This document shows positions 1-4,660 of a stretch of DNA of 5,721 nucleotides, one piece after another. This DNA comes from Ruminococcus sp. UBA1366. Lineage in GTDB: Bacteria > Bacillota > Clostridia > Oscillospirales > Ruminococcaceae. The position numbers were made by a program, and so were the translations under genes. The DNA lies in NCBI GenBank assembly GCA_002306005.1, contig DBRO01000017.1, forward strand, positions 4,636-10,356. Reading direction: 5' to 3'. The notes beneath the pieces were generated by a model, which saw only the letters and a list, made by a program, of their open reading frames with translations, made no database searches and was not told the origin of the DNA. Numbering within the stretch: the stretch's first letter is position 1; each line of letters opens with the position of its first letter.

Positions 1-425
1 TGCTTTTTGCTGATATACCGGTACACCGCCCGCACTTTGGGGTGAAAATCCACCGATTCCGCCCAGCTTTTCAGTTGCTTTTCATATGCCGTGTATTTTT
101 TCAGGGCATTTTTAGCTTCCTTGTCTGTTTGGCAGTAGTTTGCAAAATCCCCCGCGACATACGCAAGATTATCCGAAAGCGGATGGGGTGCCGTCCCGCT
201 GGAACGCGACGCAGAGCTTTCCGTAACGGGAATCAAGGTCTTTTCCTGCTCTTCGGGAACCGCCTCCGCCTGCAAAAATTCGCCGTCTTCAGAAATCTGT
301 ATCTGCACCCGCGCTTTCACCAGCATATGCGAAACTACTTCCAGCGGCACGCCGCTGTAGGACGGATCACCGGCAAGCCGCGCATTGTTTTCATACGTTT
401 GGTACAGCATTGCAAGCCAACTCAT
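1..425 (-). CDS. cas8c: Cas8c/Csd1, type I-C Cascade large subunit (N-terminal part; gene runs off the left edge)
   Basis: This is the first 141 codons of the type I-C Cascade large subunit, which recognises the PAM and helps open the target DNA. It was read by translating the minus strand from the ATG at 425-423. The protein opens with MSWLAMLYQTYE, typical of the Csd1/Cas8c family. Around residues 66-93 it has the family's conserved block, with IPVTESSA, then SGTAPHPLSD, then YVAGD. A strong AAAGGAGG ribosome binding site (433-440) lies 7 nt ahead of the ATG. The gene starts 18 nt after the cas5c stop codon, so it belongs to the same operon. No stop codon interrupts the frame down to position 1. 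Full-length members are around 550-650 residues, so most of the gene is outside the window. The family call is confident from motifs and context. Confidence 0.93.
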   Translation of the reverse strand, partial: MSWLAMLYQTYENNARLAGDPSYSGVPLEVVSHMLVKARVQIQISEDGEFLQAEAVPEEQEKTLIPVTESSASRSSGTAPHPLSDNLAYVAGDFANYCQTDKEAKNALKKYTAYEKQLKSWAESVDFHPKVRAVYRYISKK

Positions 426-443
426 TGTAACTCCTCCTTTCTG

Positions 444-1172
444 TCATTCAAAATCCACCTGCCCAAATTCGCCCAGCCCTGTGAAATTCTCAATATCCTG
501 TCCAAACGCTTTCATTTTCATTTCCCGTACGGGGCGCTGTGTGCATTCCGGCGGCGGTGCGAAATGGATGATACCGTGTTCCATTTTTGCACGCCAAAGC
601 CGCACGGTGAGCATATCCTGTGTTTTTTCGTTGTATGCTTCATCCGGATAGGTAATGCCGTGGTACATCATGCCGAAATCCAGTTCCGGTGTGTCATCGT
701 AAAAACCAGTTCCTTCGCCAAATTTTTCGGGAATCACATATGCCTGACACTCCCGCGTACCAAGATACACATCCCGCCTGCCGCCGCGTTCAATCATGCG
801 CTTTGCAATCAGATAATGCTTGTTTTCGTTGCGGTCCTTTGCCAAATCCGGACGGTTTTCGTTCCAGATAAAACGCGCCCGCACCTGATACCGGCAGTCC
901 CGCAGGTAGGTGTAGTAGGACAAATCATTCCCCCCGCTGAATTTGATGGGACGAATGCCTTTCGTTTCCGTCTGAATCCGGTTCATCACGCGCACGCTTT
1001 CCACAATCCAAATGATGGTTGGCTTCCAGTAAACGCTATGCAATACCCCCTTCATCGCCTCGTATGTGGGAATCTGATACGTCAGTTTTTCTCCGCCCGT
1101 TCTGGTTACCGGATCAGAAAACAACGCATAATCGCCGAATACTTCAAATTCCACTCTGTTCTCATGTTCCAT
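444..1172 (-). CDS. cas5c: Cas5c (Cas5d), type I-C crRNA-processing endonuclease and Cascade subunit
   Basis: Type I-C systems lack Cas6. In them Cas5c cuts pre-crRNA at the 3' base of the repeat hairpin and stays in Cascade holding the 5' handle. The start chosen is the ATG at 1172-1170 (242 aa, normal family length) because AAAGGAGG (1180-1187) sits exactly 7 nt upstream, the same spacing as cas8c. An ATG at 1190 would add six residues (MKGGFS) but has no ribosome binding site. The N-terminal segment NRVEFEVFGDYALFSDPVTR (residues 5-24) is characteristic. The residues corresponding to the catalytic Tyr-Lys-His set known in this family are present: Tyr48 in SVYWKP, and Lys118-His119 in NENKHY. 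The enzyme therefore looks active. It would be expected to process both array transcripts and the one-repeat RNA encoded at 3770-3885. Confidence 0.96.
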   Translation of the reverse strand: MEHENRVEFEVFGDYALFSDPVTRTGGEKLTYQIPTYEAMKGVLHSVYWKPTIIWIVESVRVMNRIQTETKGIRPIKFSGGNDLSYYTYLRDCRYQVRARFIWNENRPDLAKDRNENKHYLIAKRMIERGGRRDVYLGTRECQAYVIPEKFGEGTGFYDDTPELDFGMMYHGITYPDEAYNEKTQDMLTVRLWRAKMEHGIIHFAPPPECTQRPVREMKMKAFGQDIENFTGLGEFGQVDFE

Positions 1173-1189
1173 AGAAAAACCTCCTTTCA

Positions 1190-3577
1190 TTAAAAATCTT
1201 CGGTAATGACACCGGTTTCTTTATTGTAAGCCATGGGATTCAGTGTTAGCACCAGTCCGTTGGCCTCCAGTGTTATCATACCGAAATCCTTAAGCTTTTC
1301 AACCTGCCGGCAAAACAGTCCTACGCAGTATGGTTCTGCCTTTTTTAATGTTTGAAACGCAAATGCCTTGTCGTGCTTTGCTTTTTCGGAAAACAAATCC
1401 GCAATCAGCGCCGCCCCCTCGCCAAAGGGAACCAGCACATCAGTTTTGGCATCGTCATACACCTGAAACTGTTTGTGCGCGGTGTAAAACGACTGATGCA
1501 GTACAAAATCTTCCCACCCTGCTGTTCTTTTATTTTTGCCATTATAGGAGAGCAGAGAAGCCAACGTATCCTGCGGTTTTTCGACCGGATAATCCAAATA
1601 TTCCGCCATGCCGGAAAAATACCGCTGATAATAGGTTTCTATCGCCGCAGAACCAAGCAGTCCCGCCGGATAAGCATCCGGATTCTTATGCCACAGCGAA
1701 AGTACCTGTATGGTTTTTTGCTTACCCGCTTGGATTTCCTTCAGAAAACCAAGCTGTTCGTTTTGCGCTTCCACAAGATAAACCGGACAGCATCCGGGAT
1801 ATTCCCCGCTCCGGTTACAACGCCCCGCCGCTTGTGCAATGCTGTGCAATCCCGCCGCAAACCGAATGACGGATTCAAAAGAAAAATCCACGCCTGCTTC
1901 CACCAGCTGGGTAGCCACACAAATGATTTTATCCCCGCCTTTACGGCTGGCATCCAGTCCATTTATAATAGTATCCAGCACCTGTTCGCGGTGCTTTTGA
2001 CACATTTGTGTGGAAAGATGAAACACCTGTGCGCCGCCGATTCTCTGAAGCCCTTGCAGTTCTTCATAAAGCTTCCGCGCCTGTGCGGTGGTGTTGCAAA
2101 TGACAAGCAGGGAGGTTCGCTCTTCCGCTACGGTACGGGCAAATGCTCCGATTTTTTCCAGCCCCCACCCGCCCCCGCCGGTTTTATCCACAATCTCCAC
2201 GCGAGTAAAAATCTTCTGCTGTGCAGGGGTAAGCTGACAAAGCTCCGGATTCGGCGCATACTGCAAATGCAGGCTTTGTTCGAATTCCGGCTGGGTTGCC
2301 GTAGAAAGCACCACGGTCGTTTTGCAAACCGCCGAAAGAAAATTCATTGCCCGAACAAACAGCCCGGTGGTTTTAATCGGTAAGGACTGGACTTCGTCTA
2401 AAATGACCGTTGCGCCAATCAGGGACTGCATTCTGCGAATATCAGAAGTCTTGTGTGAAAACAGCAAATTTAACAGCTGATACAGCGTGGAAACCACAAA
2501 CGGCTTGTCCCACGCGGCAAGCACCGCAAGCGTTTCCGCCTGTTCATTTTCATCCGGTTCCCCGTCCTCCTGCACCACATTGGAATGATGCTCCAAAATG
2601 TCGCCGCTGGATTCCAAAAACTTGTGAAACACCTTGCGGTTCTGGTCAATCACCGTCAGCAGCGGAATGATAAACACAATCCGACGCTTTGTTCGAGAAA
2701 ATATCTCGTTATGCCGCAGTGCGTAACGCAAAGCGGCAAGCGTTTTCCCCGCACCGGTCGGCAAACTCATGCGATAAATTCCCATTGCACGTTCCGCGGC
2801 GGCAAGGCACTGCGCTGAGAAATCACTTCGCGCAAGGTTGATCGGAGAATCAGAATCCGGCAAATCCTGAAGTTTGCGCTCCAGATATACCCGATTGCTG
2901 TGCCAATACGCAAAGTCCGTCTGCCTTTGCGGAAATTTTCCCTTCGCCTCAAATTCCGCCGTATCCCGCCTGTCGCCGTCTATCACCGCCGAAAGCACCA
3001 GTCGGGCCAGCATACCAAAATGAAAGTTCTTTTTGTCTAGCGCACGAAAAGCCGCACCGGTTACAATTTCCGTTACTTCCTCAACGCTTTTTTCAAAAAG
3101 CGCATCCAGCTCTGCCGGTGAAAACTCCTGCTCAAACGCCGCCTTCGCCTCAGAAAATTCAATCTCCTGCCGATCATATTTTGTTCGGTACAAAAATCCG
3201 TTTCTGCGGGTTTGGGGTTCTGCCGGATCAAATTCCCCGTGGTGGGCGCCGCAGGCATACATCAAAACTTCCGCAGTGAGGCGGCGGTAGGAATCCCCGC
3301 TGTGCCAGCGTTCTTCTGCCCATATAACCCCTTGAAATGTATGAATCACACTGCCGCGCACCACTTCCTCGCCATTGGCGGCACGCTCCAGATAGTTTTG
3401 GTATTTCTCGGTGTATTTTCCGCAGTCGTGCAGAACGCCGGCAAGAAATCCGGTTTTACCCAAGCCAACGGGTGCTAAGGTTGCCTCGGCATACTGCGCA
3501 ACGGTGCGAAGATGCTCTCGCAGTGGTTGTTCTCTGCGGGTGTCCTCCTTTATCATAAGGTGTGCTAGATATTGCAT
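1190..3577 (-). CDS. cas3: Cas3, type I-C HD nuclease-helicase
   Basis: Cas3 is the effector recruited by target-bound Cascade; it nicks, unwinds and degrades the DNA. It is full length (795 aa) with all expected motifs. In the HD nuclease domain these are His22, His50-Asp51 in LHDCGKY, His79, His112-His113 in AHHGEFD, and IDGDRRDT at 199-206. In the superfamily 2 helicase they are Walker A SLPTGAGKT (271-279), DEVQ (394-397), STATQP (425-430), ATQLVEAGVDFSF (555-567) and QAAGRCNRSG (582-591). No frameshift or lost catalytic residue is seen. The ATG at 3577-3575 follows AAAGGAG (3584-3590) by 6 nt, with a near-consensus promoter just upstream. It is the first gene of the operon, so repression at that promoter should affect the whole visible cas set. 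The stop codon shares one base with an unused ATG of cas5c. Confidence 0.97.
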   Translation of the reverse strand: MQYLAHLMIKEDTRREQPLREHLRTVAQYAEATLAPVGLGKTGFLAGVLHDCGKYTEKYQNYLERAANGEEVVRGSVIHTFQGVIWAEERWHSGDSYRRLTAEVLMYACGAHHGEFDPAEPQTRRNGFLYRTKYDRQEIEFSEAKAAFEQEFSPAELDALFEKSVEEVTEIVTGAAFRALDKKNFHFGMLARLVLSAVIDGDRRDTAEFEAKGKFPQRQTDFAYWHSNRVYLERKLQDLPDSDSPINLARSDFSAQCLAAAERAMGIYRMSLPTGAGKTLAALRYALRHNEIFSRTKRRIVFIIPLLTVIDQNRKVFHKFLESSGDILEHHSNVVQEDGEPDENEQAETLAVLAAWDKPFVVSTLYQLLNLLFSHKTSDIRRMQSLIGATVILDEVQSLPIKTTGLFVRAMNFLSAVCKTTVVLSTATQPEFEQSLHLQYAPNPELCQLTPAQQKIFTRVEIVDKTGGGGWGLEKIGAFARTVAEERTSLLVICNTTAQARKLYEELQGLQRIGGAQVFHLSTQMCQKHREQVLDTIINGLDASRKGGDKIICVATQLVEAGVDFSFESVIRFAAGLHSIAQAAGRCNRSGEYPGCCPVYLVEAQNEQLGFLKEIQAGKQKTIQVLSLWHKNPDAYPAGLLGSAAIETYYQRYFSGMAEYLDYPVEKPQDTLASLLSYNGKNKRTAGWEDFVLHQSFYTAHKQFQVYDDAKTDVLVPFGEGAALIADLFSEKAKHDKAFAFQTLKKAEPYCVGLFCRQVEKLKDFGMITLEANGLVLTLNPMAYNKETGVITEDF

Positions 3578-3588
3578 TCAATTCTCCT

Positions 3589-3625
3589 TTCCTATTTTGT
3601 TATTATAATTATATCGCATTTGAGC
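3589..3625 (+). promoter_or_regulatory. Predicted Cascade target (TTC PAM plus protospacer) on the cas promoter
   Basis: TTC at 3589-3591 is the canonical type I-C PAM in the correct 5' position. Bases 3592-3607 (CTATTTTGTTATTATA) are identical to 3804-3819, the 16 nt immediately after the handle of the crRNA-like RNA. Over the following 18 positions only 3 match, so pairing would be seed-proximal only. A full Cascade footprint from here would cover the transcript start, the whole -10 box and most of the promoter spacer, and the PAM touches the cas3 ribosome binding site. Such partial matches are known to allow binding but usually not Cas3 cleavage in type I systems. Identity, register and PAM are seen in the sequence; the repressor role is inferred. 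Confidence 0.8.
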
Positions 3626-3636
3626 TAAGCGGTCAA
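3608..3636 (-). promoter_or_regulatory. Promoter of the cas operon
   Basis: Read on the minus strand, TTGACC (3636-3631) is followed by a 17-bp spacer and a perfect TATAAT (3613-3608). This is an excellent vegetative sigma-factor promoter. The expected transcript start is near 3601, giving a 5' leader of only about 24 nt before the cas3 ATG. The -10 box directly abuts the 16-bp identity with the divergent crRNA-like RNA (3592-3607). Confidence 0.85.
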
Positions 3637-3703
3637 TCGCATTATTTTACAATTTTTCAAAGATAATTTTGGACATATTAACGATATTCTGTCGAAAATC
3701 TAC

Positions 3704-3731
3704 AAATTAGTGCAAATAAGCGCACAAATTT
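3704..3731. repeat. Imperfect inverted repeat upstream of the crRNA-like RNA promoter
   Basis: The arms are AAATTAGTGC (3704-3713) and GCACAAATTT (3722-3731), which are complementary at 9 of 10 positions around an 8-nt centre. The element ends 3 nt before the -35 box of the divergent small-RNA promoter, a usual place for an activator or repressor site. No binding protein can be named from the sequence. Confidence 0.45.
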
Positions 3732-3734
3732 CAC

Positions 3735-3763
3735 TTTACTTTTTGCTTGATATTCTGTATAAT
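3735..3763 (+). promoter_or_regulatory. Promoter of the one-repeat crRNA-like RNA
   Basis: TTTACT (3735-3740), a 17-bp spacer and a perfect TATAAT (3758-3763) form a good vegetative promoter on the plus strand, divergent from the cas promoter. The predicted start near 3770 coincides with the GTC that begins the repeat. No downstream open reading frame makes use of it before the terminator at 3853-3885, which supports a non-coding transcript. Confidence 0.78.
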
Positions 3764-3769
3764 AAAACT

Positions 3770-3803
3770 GTCATGGATGGCACAGCATCCTGTGGATTGA
3801 AAT
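3770..3803 (+). CRISPR. Solitary type I-C-like CRISPR repeat (not an array)
   Basis: It begins with GTC and ends with GTGGATTGAAAT (3792-3803), both typical of 32-nt type I-C repeats. The stem GGATG (3775-3779) and CATCC (3786-3790) encloses the loop GCACAG; the stem sequence is diverged from common I-C repeats but the fold is kept. The last 11 nt are the expected Cas5c-cut handle. No second intact repeat follows within the window, so this is a single unit and not a short array. The host's true array repeat lies outside the window, so the two cannot be compared here. Confidence 0.85.
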
Positions 3804-3831
3804 CTATTTTGTTATTATAGTGTAGTACAAA

Positions 3832-3846
3832 GCCCCGCATGGGGGC
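3832..3846 (+). other. GC-rich hairpin, possibly a decayed second repeat
   Basis: GCCCC (3832-3836) pairs with GGGGC (3842-3846) around a 5-nt loop. It sits where a downstream repeat hairpin of a mini-CRISPR unit could be, after a guide of roughly 21-28 nt. The repeat-type 3' handle is absent and overall similarity to 3770-3803 is low. It may equally be a 3' stabiliser of the small RNA. The pairing is clear; its origin is uncertain. Confidence 0.5.
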
Positions 3847-3852
3847 GCAAGC

Positions 3853-3885
3853 AAAAAAGTCCGACTGCTCAGCCGGACTTTTTTT
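3853..3885. terminator. Strong bidirectional rho-independent terminator
   Basis: AAAAAAGTCCG (3853-3863) pairs with CGGACTTTTTT (3874-3884), an 11-bp stem with a 10-nt loop and a T-tract on each strand. On the plus strand it ends the crRNA-like RNA; on the minus strand it ends the YjbQ-family transcript before it reaches the cas promoter region. Confidence 0.92.
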
Positions 3886-3933
3886 GCTACCTTATATAAA
3901 AACAGCGCCCGCACACGGCGAACGCCTTTTTCA

Positions 3934-4329
3934 TTAGCCTTCCAGAATTTTTACATAGAAACGCCGGCTGCGCGGGCCGTCAAATTCACAAAAATAAATC
4001 CCCTGCCAAATGCCCAGCAGCAGTTGGGCATCCGCCACAAGCACTTGCGTGGAACAGCCCAGAAAACTGGATTTCAAATGGGCAGGCGTGTTGCCCTCCG
4101 CATGGCGGTAATCCACAGATTGCGGAAACAGCCGGTCAATGGCAAGCAGCATATCCCGCACGACGTCGGGGTCAGCGTTTTCATTGATGGTAATGCCTGC
4201 GGTGGTGTGCGTGGTATAAATCACACAAAGTCCGTCGGTTATCCCACTGCGCGAAACCGCCTCCTGAACCTGCTGCGTGATATTGTAAAACTGCTCTTTT
4301 TCTGTTTTTAATGTAAATTCGTAAATCAC
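3934..4329 (-). CDS. YjbQ family (UPF0047) protein
   Basis: A 131-residue protein, the usual length for this widespread single-domain family, whose cellular role is still poorly defined. Conserved blocks are visible: THTTAGITINENADPDV (40-56), HAEGN (76-80), AHLK (83-86) and GIWQGIYFCEFDGPRSRR (106-123). The histidines at 41, 76 and 84 are of the type proposed to form a metal or ligand site. The start is GTG (4329-4327), supported by AAGGGGAG about 7 nt upstream. There is no signal peptide or membrane segment, so it is probably cytosolic. It is transcribed towards the CRISPR locus but separated from it by the bidirectional terminator at 3853-3885. No functional link to CRISPR is implied. Confidence 0.92.
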   Translation of the reverse strand: MIYEFTLKTEKEQFYNITQQVQEAVSRSGITDGLCVIYTTHTTAGITINENADPDVVRDMLLAIDRLFPQSVDYRHAEGNTPAHLKSSFLGCSTQVLVADAQLLLGIWQGIYFCEFDGPRSRRFYVKILEG

Positions 4330-4606: not shown

Positions 4607-4660
4607 TTGTTTAGATTTGCCGGAATTTTCGGCGTAAAATTAAAGGAATATACAGGATTT

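Follow-up and report, generated by a model that had tools for sequence, protein, structure and literature searches.

Why should a short gene that resembles a CRISPR repeat followed by a guide, and that lies outside the array, match the region in front of a cas operon base for base over 16 positions? This question is raised by the 5,721-nucleotide stretch of DNA analyzed here, which we refer to as the window.

The cas locus and its predicted promoter

The window belongs to a contig of 10,356 bases in a genome bin of 1.78 Mb that is estimated to be about 75% complete. The contig encodes, consecutively on the minus strand, cas3, cas5c, cas8c, cas7, cas4, cas1, and cas2, followed by a CRISPR array. 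Cas5c, Cas7/Csd2, Cas1c, Cas4, Cas2, and the Cas3 domains scored over the NCBIfam cut-off, and the models for Cas5c, Cas7/Csd2, and Cas1c supply the type I-C name. By these gene assignments, this is a type I-C CRISPR-Cas locus with an array. The window contains the following parts of it.

1190-3577, minus strand: cas3 (HD nuclease and helicase); TIGR01587 and TIGR01596 over cut-off
444-1190, minus strand: cas5c; TIGR01876 over cut-off, and PF09704
3-425, minus strand: cas8c, first part, the remainder lying outside the window past an assembly gap; TIGR01863 below cut-off on the window piece, PF09709 over cut-off in two pieces
3608-3636, minus strand (read from 3636 to 3608): predicted cas promoter, TTGACC, 17 bases, TATAAT; 11 of 12 consensus bases, by consensus match only

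A run of 16 N just outside the window (positions 4620-4635 of its own contig, L002) splits cas8c. Between cas2 and the array, on the minus strand of the contig at 268-279, we also observed a word resembling the repeat end, GGGAATTGAAAC, that follows a GC-rich stem and may represent either a leader element or another degenerate repeat. The first spacer of the array (contig positions around 87-120, minus strand) is AT-rich and contains TATAAT.

The guide and its target

The full array repeat of this contig is GTCGCTCCCCCCGCGGGGAGCGTGGATTGAAAT, which terminates in GTGGATTGAAAT. Positions 3791-3803 of the window read TGTGGATTGAAAT, which is the end of the array repeat, so the match begins at the first base 3' of a repeat end. 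The next 16 bases, 3804-3819 (CTATTTTGTTATTATA), are identical to 3592-3607 at 16 of 16 positions (direct repeat, family D12; letters rechecked).

3589-3591, plus strand: TTC, the expected PAM; zero was the only offset enriched in TTC in the order set described below
3592-3607, plus strand: guide target; direct repeat, bin search, and shuffles

TTC directly precedes the target, and beyond base 16 the guide and the target agree at 3 of 18 positions (17 to 34). The first-pass annotation had reported the identity, the start of the guide immediately after the repeat handle, the adjoining TTC, and the poor agreement after base 16; all of these stood on rechecking, the guide start being borne out by the array repeat end on the same contig. 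It had also judged chance to be a poor explanation, and we agree. Shuffling 3578-3803 20,000 times with dinucleotides preserved gave, over both strands, a longest guide-prefix match beside TTC of 9 bases, seen once, compared with 16 in the window. When the bin (1.78 Mb, roughly 75% complete) was searched for TTC followed by the guide, any base being allowed at positions 6 and 12, the target site was the single occurrence; the reversed control pattern of TTC plus guide occurs 0 times in the same 1.78 Mb.

The placement of the target on the cas promoter, as claimed earlier, held with a refinement: the target abuts the predicted -10 box, and the -10 hexamer itself (3608-3613) lies in that portion of the 34-base protospacer which the guide does not match. 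Given the predicted promoter, the paired 16 bases would span the edge of the -10 box and the expected start (approximately 3601) and run onward to cas3. A second TATAAT lies within the target on the minus strand (3607-3602).

The position of the target bears on whether this gene could be the CreA half of a CreTA module, holding down a small toxin RNA. Similar genes with degenerate repeats, TTC, and pairing at positions 1 to 5 and 7 to 11 are described in passages of PMC8501985, and a tiny toxin RNA within 3640-3770 would escape the list of open reading frames. However, the target ends 14 bases upstream of the cas3 start codon, which makes cas3 the gene downstream of it rather than a toxin gene; in relatives, too, targets lie at the start of cas3 or of the cas5c operon. 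We therefore regard a CreTA module as extremely unlikely.

The predicted small RNA gene

The guide is part of a predicted stand-alone crRNA-like gene that adjoins the cas operon, lies on the plus strand, and points away from cas3. Comparison of 3770-3803 with the array repeat shows a degenerate repeat before the guide.

3735-3763, plus strand: predicted small RNA promoter, TTTACT (3735-3740), 17 bases, TATAAT (3758-3763); 10 of 12 consensus bases
3770-3803, plus strand: degenerate repeat with a GTC start, a stem GGATG/CATCC (3775-3779 with 3786-3790), and the intact end TGTGGATTGAAAT; comparison with the array repeat, and fold
3804-3831, plus strand: guide, of which 3804-3819 matches the cas promoter region
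3832-3846, plus strand: GC hairpin GCCCC-GCATG-GGGGC, possibly a second degenerate repeat; fold, with repeat likeness judged by eye
3853-3884, plus strand: terminator-like stem and T run; inverted repeat I5, and fold

The stem GGATG/CATCC replaces the stem of the array repeat. Behind the guide, the GC hairpin is present and the repeat end is not kept, its likeness to the repeat having been judged by eye; the hairpin came from a minus-strand listing, and its stem is identical on both strands. Many relatives have one long hairpin behind the guide instead of a second repeat, as seen in folds rather than by count. The predicted fold of 3770-3890 is more stable than those of 200 of 200 shuffles (z = -3.6). 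A search of Rfam returned 14 weak matches, none near its gathering score (the best had 21.5 bits against 55).

In the window and 13 other loci (14 of the 29 with guide-target pairs in the order and phylum sets described below), 12 nt separate the -10 box from the GTC with which the repeat begins, and in 18 of the 29 the separation is 11 to 13 nt. A -10-like box lies 36 to 60 nt before the guide in 23 of the 29 loci, compared with 8.7% of background places. Given this fixed distance, transcription probably begins on the repeat itself, which in the window would place the start at 3770, the first repeat base.

The stem at 3853-3884, which is absent from the list produced by the terminator scan, is preceded by an A run and followed by a T run. 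It separates the small RNA gene from yjbQ (3934-4329, minus strand), which is oriented towards it, and this symmetry and position suggest that the stem could terminate the transcripts of both.

Survey of type I-C relatives

Relatives were drawn from three samples. In the order to which the window belongs, Cas8c was found in 90 of 394 genomes, and 91 loci were fetched, making 92 with the window's own contig; 83 of these had a recognized cas3 and were scanned, two (L058 and L076) were added by hand, and seven were left out. One order positive, L065, entered from a wider search. Elsewhere in the phylum, Cas8c was found in 102 of 398 genomes, from which 60 loci were fetched. A third set from named genomes comprised 80 loci, the best 80 of at least 593 stretches obtained with an alignment query; a single-protein query for cas3 relatives in named genomes gave 0 confirmed among 47 stretches. 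The 61 genomes of one search included none from the same genus, so the pair was followed over longer evolutionary distances only. Some genomes may occur in both the order set and the named set; L112 and L198, both negative, come from contigs of equal length.

We scanned for words resembling the repeat end (at most 2 mismatches in 11) and compared the bases following them with all places in the surrounding zone on both strands, requiring at least 10 matching seed bases and allowing mismatches at every sixth base. A first scan of whole loci was swamped by array repeats and was left out of the counts; zones adjoining cas3, with arrays masked, were used instead.

Guide-target pairs were found in 46 type I-C loci. 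Of these, 25 come from the 85 loci of the order, 4 (L153, L172, L179, and L187) from the 60 loci of the rest of the phylum, and 17 from the named set, which consists of the best 80 of at least 593 stretches. The PAM is TTC in 40 pairs and TTT in 6. In the order set, matches with at least 10 seed bases at zero offset comprised 19 beside TTC, 5 beside TTT, and 5 beside other triplets, compared with 5 beside TTC and 8 beside TTT summed over 36 wrong offsets. The matches beside other triplets are at the level of the other offsets and were not counted. Among such uncounted matches, those in L077, L123, and L125 nevertheless have the pattern at positions 6 and 12. An earlier scan restricted to the region upstream of cas3 (at least 9 seed bases) gave 5 matches beside TTC at zero offset and 0 at 30 others. 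The phylum set gave 4 beside TTC at zero, against 6 over 36 offsets, and for TTT 0 against 9.

Positives in the named set, again among the best 80 of at least 593 stretches, include 16 beside TTC and one, L269, beside TTT; carriers include Aeribacillus composti, Heyndrickxia ginsengihumi, Paenibacillus apiarius, Caldibacillus thermoamylovorans, Enterococcus termitis, and a Kiritimatiellae bin. The 36 wrong offsets of this set yielded 57 matches beside TTC, 30 of them at -3 and +6, an excess that is probably due to unmasked array repeats. For TTT, 2 matches at zero against 67 over 36 offsets amount to background, so L269 is doubtful, as are L255 and L256. Taken alone, the named set is weaker evidence, its controls being less clean. 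In L086, a guide 166 nt before the cas3 frame has an 8-base match beside TTT, which was not counted; up to base 21 its mismatches fall at 9, 12, 15, and 18 only, and the every-sixth-base rule does not fit.

Pairing rule and covariation

Across the 46 pairs, pairing covers positions 1 to 5, 7 to 11, and 13 to 16, leaves 6 and 12 free, and fades at 16 to 17. Positions 1 to 5 and 7 to 11 match because the selection required it. Position 6 matches in 8 pairs and position 12 in 10; positions 13, 14, and 15 match in 42, 40, and 44, position 16 in 37, and position 17 in 22, and positions 18 to 30 match in 6 to 18, which is background. Leaving out the three doubtful pairs gives the same pattern: among the remaining 43, position 6 matches in 6 and position 12 in 8, positions 13 to 16 in 42, 38, 41, and 34, and position 17 in 19. 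The window matches at 6 and 12 as well; matches at both would be expected in a few per cent of loci if these positions are free.

Each of the 46 guides differs from the others, and each matches a site near its own cas genes. The computational check proposed by the first-pass annotation, whether guide seed and promoter covary in related genomes, was run, and it came out in favor of covariation. In the 29 loci of the order and phylum sets, which hold 28 distinct seeds, a guide matches its own target at a mean of 12.9 of 13 seed positions, a value set partly by the selection (10 seed bases were required, 13 to 15 being unselected), and matches the target of another locus at a mean of 4.8 of 13 (812 pairs, of which 16 reach at least 10).

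Placement of element and target

The element lies upstream of cas3 in five loci (the window, L053, L085, L099, and L111), where the gap between cas3 and cas5c measures -1 to 39 nt. In 18 loci it lies 61 to 86 nt past the cas3 stop in antisense orientation, the cas3-cas5c gap measures 174 to 948 nt, and the target lies around this gap. In both placements, the target is found where the promoter of the Cascade genes is expected.

When repeats were picked by sequence and place only, 23 of 40 had a match beside TTC or TTT with at least 10 seed bases, and the other 17 reached at most 7. Upstream of cas3, such a match was found for 5 of 14 repeat-end words. The first-pass annotation had named homologous loci with an unmatched guide and promoter as evidence that would speak against it, and these were sought. 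Of 21 degenerate repeats lying 56 to 86 nt behind cas3 and picked blind to the target, 18 match (flanked by TTC or TTT, at least 10 seed bases) and three (L043, L077, and L098) do not. L077 has its match beside CTT. For the conserved-place repeat ends of L043 and L098, no match beside TTC or TTT was found within 1,000 bases on either side; these may be decayed pairs or have their targets elsewhere.

Judged by consensus matches only, 23 of the 46 targets overlap a predicted promoter on the cas strand, 15 lie at most 30 bases upstream of a predicted -35 box, and 8 have no predicted promoter nearby. Targets that overlap or lie just upstream thus number 38 of 46, compared with 36 of 360 shifted control places.

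These positions allow us to weigh an ordinary antisense RNA that would bind the cas3 message at its 5' end independently of Cascade. In the window, the guide could indeed pair with the cas strand where the message is expected to begin, but with a predicted start near 3601 only about 10 paired bases would fall within the message. In 13 of the 46 pairs the guide has the same sense as the cas strand, so no pairing with the message is possible, and the 15 targets upstream of a predicted -35 box do not fit either. TTC enrichment in a single register and the free positions 6 and 12 point instead to Cascade on DNA, and we consider an antisense RNA very unlikely.

In L044, L068, and L069, which have their targets in the cas3-cas5c gap, the target appears by eye to be flanked by the -35 boxes of two divergent promoters, one serving the cas5c operon and the other the small RNA gene; Cascade bound there could repress both. 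Such an arrangement would suit a gene that is mainly a self-switch, with Cascade acting primarily on the promoter of the guide and only secondarily on cas. However, the target in the window abuts the predicted cas -10 box and lies about 130 bases from the -35 box of the RNA gene, and the overlap of half of all targets (23 of 46) with a predicted cas promoter also argues against this reading, the least probable of those we considered.

Distribution on the cas3 tree

On a tree of 220 Cas3 proteins, 43 of them from loci with the element, its presence requires 29 parsimony changes. In 500 label shuffles, the mean was 39.9 changes and the minimum 33. Presence is therefore patchy and partly inherited. 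Nine loci near the window in the tree have no strict match, and a looser scan of these nine gave one doubtful pair (L193); the neighbors L111, L199, and L202 are positive.

The patchiness could be taken to mean that the element is merely a decayed repeat and spacer of an old array, with a self-match that serves no use. Set against this are the number of changes, which is below that of every shuffle, the constant spacing of the element's own -10 box in 14 of 29 loci, the retention of the repeat end, and the retention of pairing while guides differ. A decayed array remnant accordingly seems to us extremely improbable.

Proposed mechanism

We conclude, with a probability of nearly nine in ten, that the window carries a type I-C gene of the cas-regulating RNA (CreR) kind, whose guide matches the predicted cas promoter, which is predicted to load Cascade, and which is likely to repress the cas operon. 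The first-pass annotation had proposed negative feedback through Cascade loaded with a guide that matches in part. These comparisons support that proposal as the best reading, and we add the class name CreR, which the annotation did not use. In favor of the CreR reading are the private guide-target pairs of the same design in other I-C loci; against it are the patchy presence, the three conserved-place repeats that lack a match, and the eight targets that lack a predicted promoter.

In our proposal, the small RNA would be transcribed from 3770 and trimmed by Cas5c at the repeat stem. Cascade loaded with this RNA would occupy 3589-3625 and block RNA polymerase. Because pairing stops at base 16, the R-loop would be too short for Cas3 cutting, and the chromosome would be spared; we infer both the repression and the absence of cutting from sequence. 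Free Cascade would in this way measure itself: when array crRNAs or anti-CRISPRs use it up, the block would lift and more Cas protein would be made.

If this is true, self-limitation through a built-in guide extends to type I-C. The natural guide-target pairs would amount to a ready-made mutational scan, in which positions 1 to 5, 7 to 11, and 13 to 16 are kept and 6 and 12 are ignored, so that the amount of pairing that silences without cutting becomes directly testable. They could also serve as designs for gene repression with native Cascade. More tentatively, and with somewhat less than an even chance of being right as a whole, we postulate that type I-C holds a large undescribed branch of CreR genes built as Cas6-less mini-CRISPRs, that the three-segment, 16-base rule sets the limit beyond which silencing gives way to Cas3 cutting, that the pairs coevolve privately, locus by locus, and that in some genomes a target placed between the cas promoter and a divergent creR promoter lets Cascade repress its own genes together with its guide.

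Comparison with known systems

The primary description of CreR is reportedly that of Liu et al. (2023, Cell Host Microbe). In the parts of reviews consulted here, CreR is encoded by a mini-CRISPR that stands apart from the array; the RNA resembles a crRNA and is partly complementary to the promoter of its own cas genes, and its block is lifted by competition from crRNAs or by loss of Cascade to anti-CRISPRs (PMC13131331, PMC12737573, PMC12948488). Autorepression is named there for types I-B, I-E, and V-A (PMC13131331), and CreR is called widespread in type I and V-A (PMC12737573). In the passages of the literature consulted here, we found no CreR named for type I-C, the subtype with a minimal Cascade according to an excerpt of PMC7684278.

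CreA of CreTA, as portrayed in portions of PMC8501985 and PMC9458426, shares the degenerate repeats, the TTC PAM, the seed at 1 to 5 and 7 to 11, and the free positions 6 and 12, and it guides Cascade to repress without cutting. The mismatch at every sixth base is likewise known for type I and CreA (PMC8501985, in part). The target of CreA is a toxin gene promoter, whereas that of the window precedes cas3, and to the CreA pattern the 46 pairs add a third segment and a fade at 16 to 17.

For Cas9, the non-array guides in such repression go by the names tracr-L and scaRNA. Autorepression of Cas9 through a long tracrRNA is recounted in a passage of PMC13131331. As proposed for the window, transcription is lowered by a Cas effector whose guide comes from outside an array and is only partly complementary to its target; the Cas9 systems differ in being type II, with a single-protein effector and a guide derived from tracrRNA.

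With CreR, the window shares a non-array crRNA-like gene and partial complementarity to its own cas promoter, the latter predicted by consensus only. On this likeness we assign it to the CreR kind, from which it differs in its type I-C operon without Cas6, in pairing that reaches a third segment at positions 13 to 16, and in a transcript that probably starts on the repeat.
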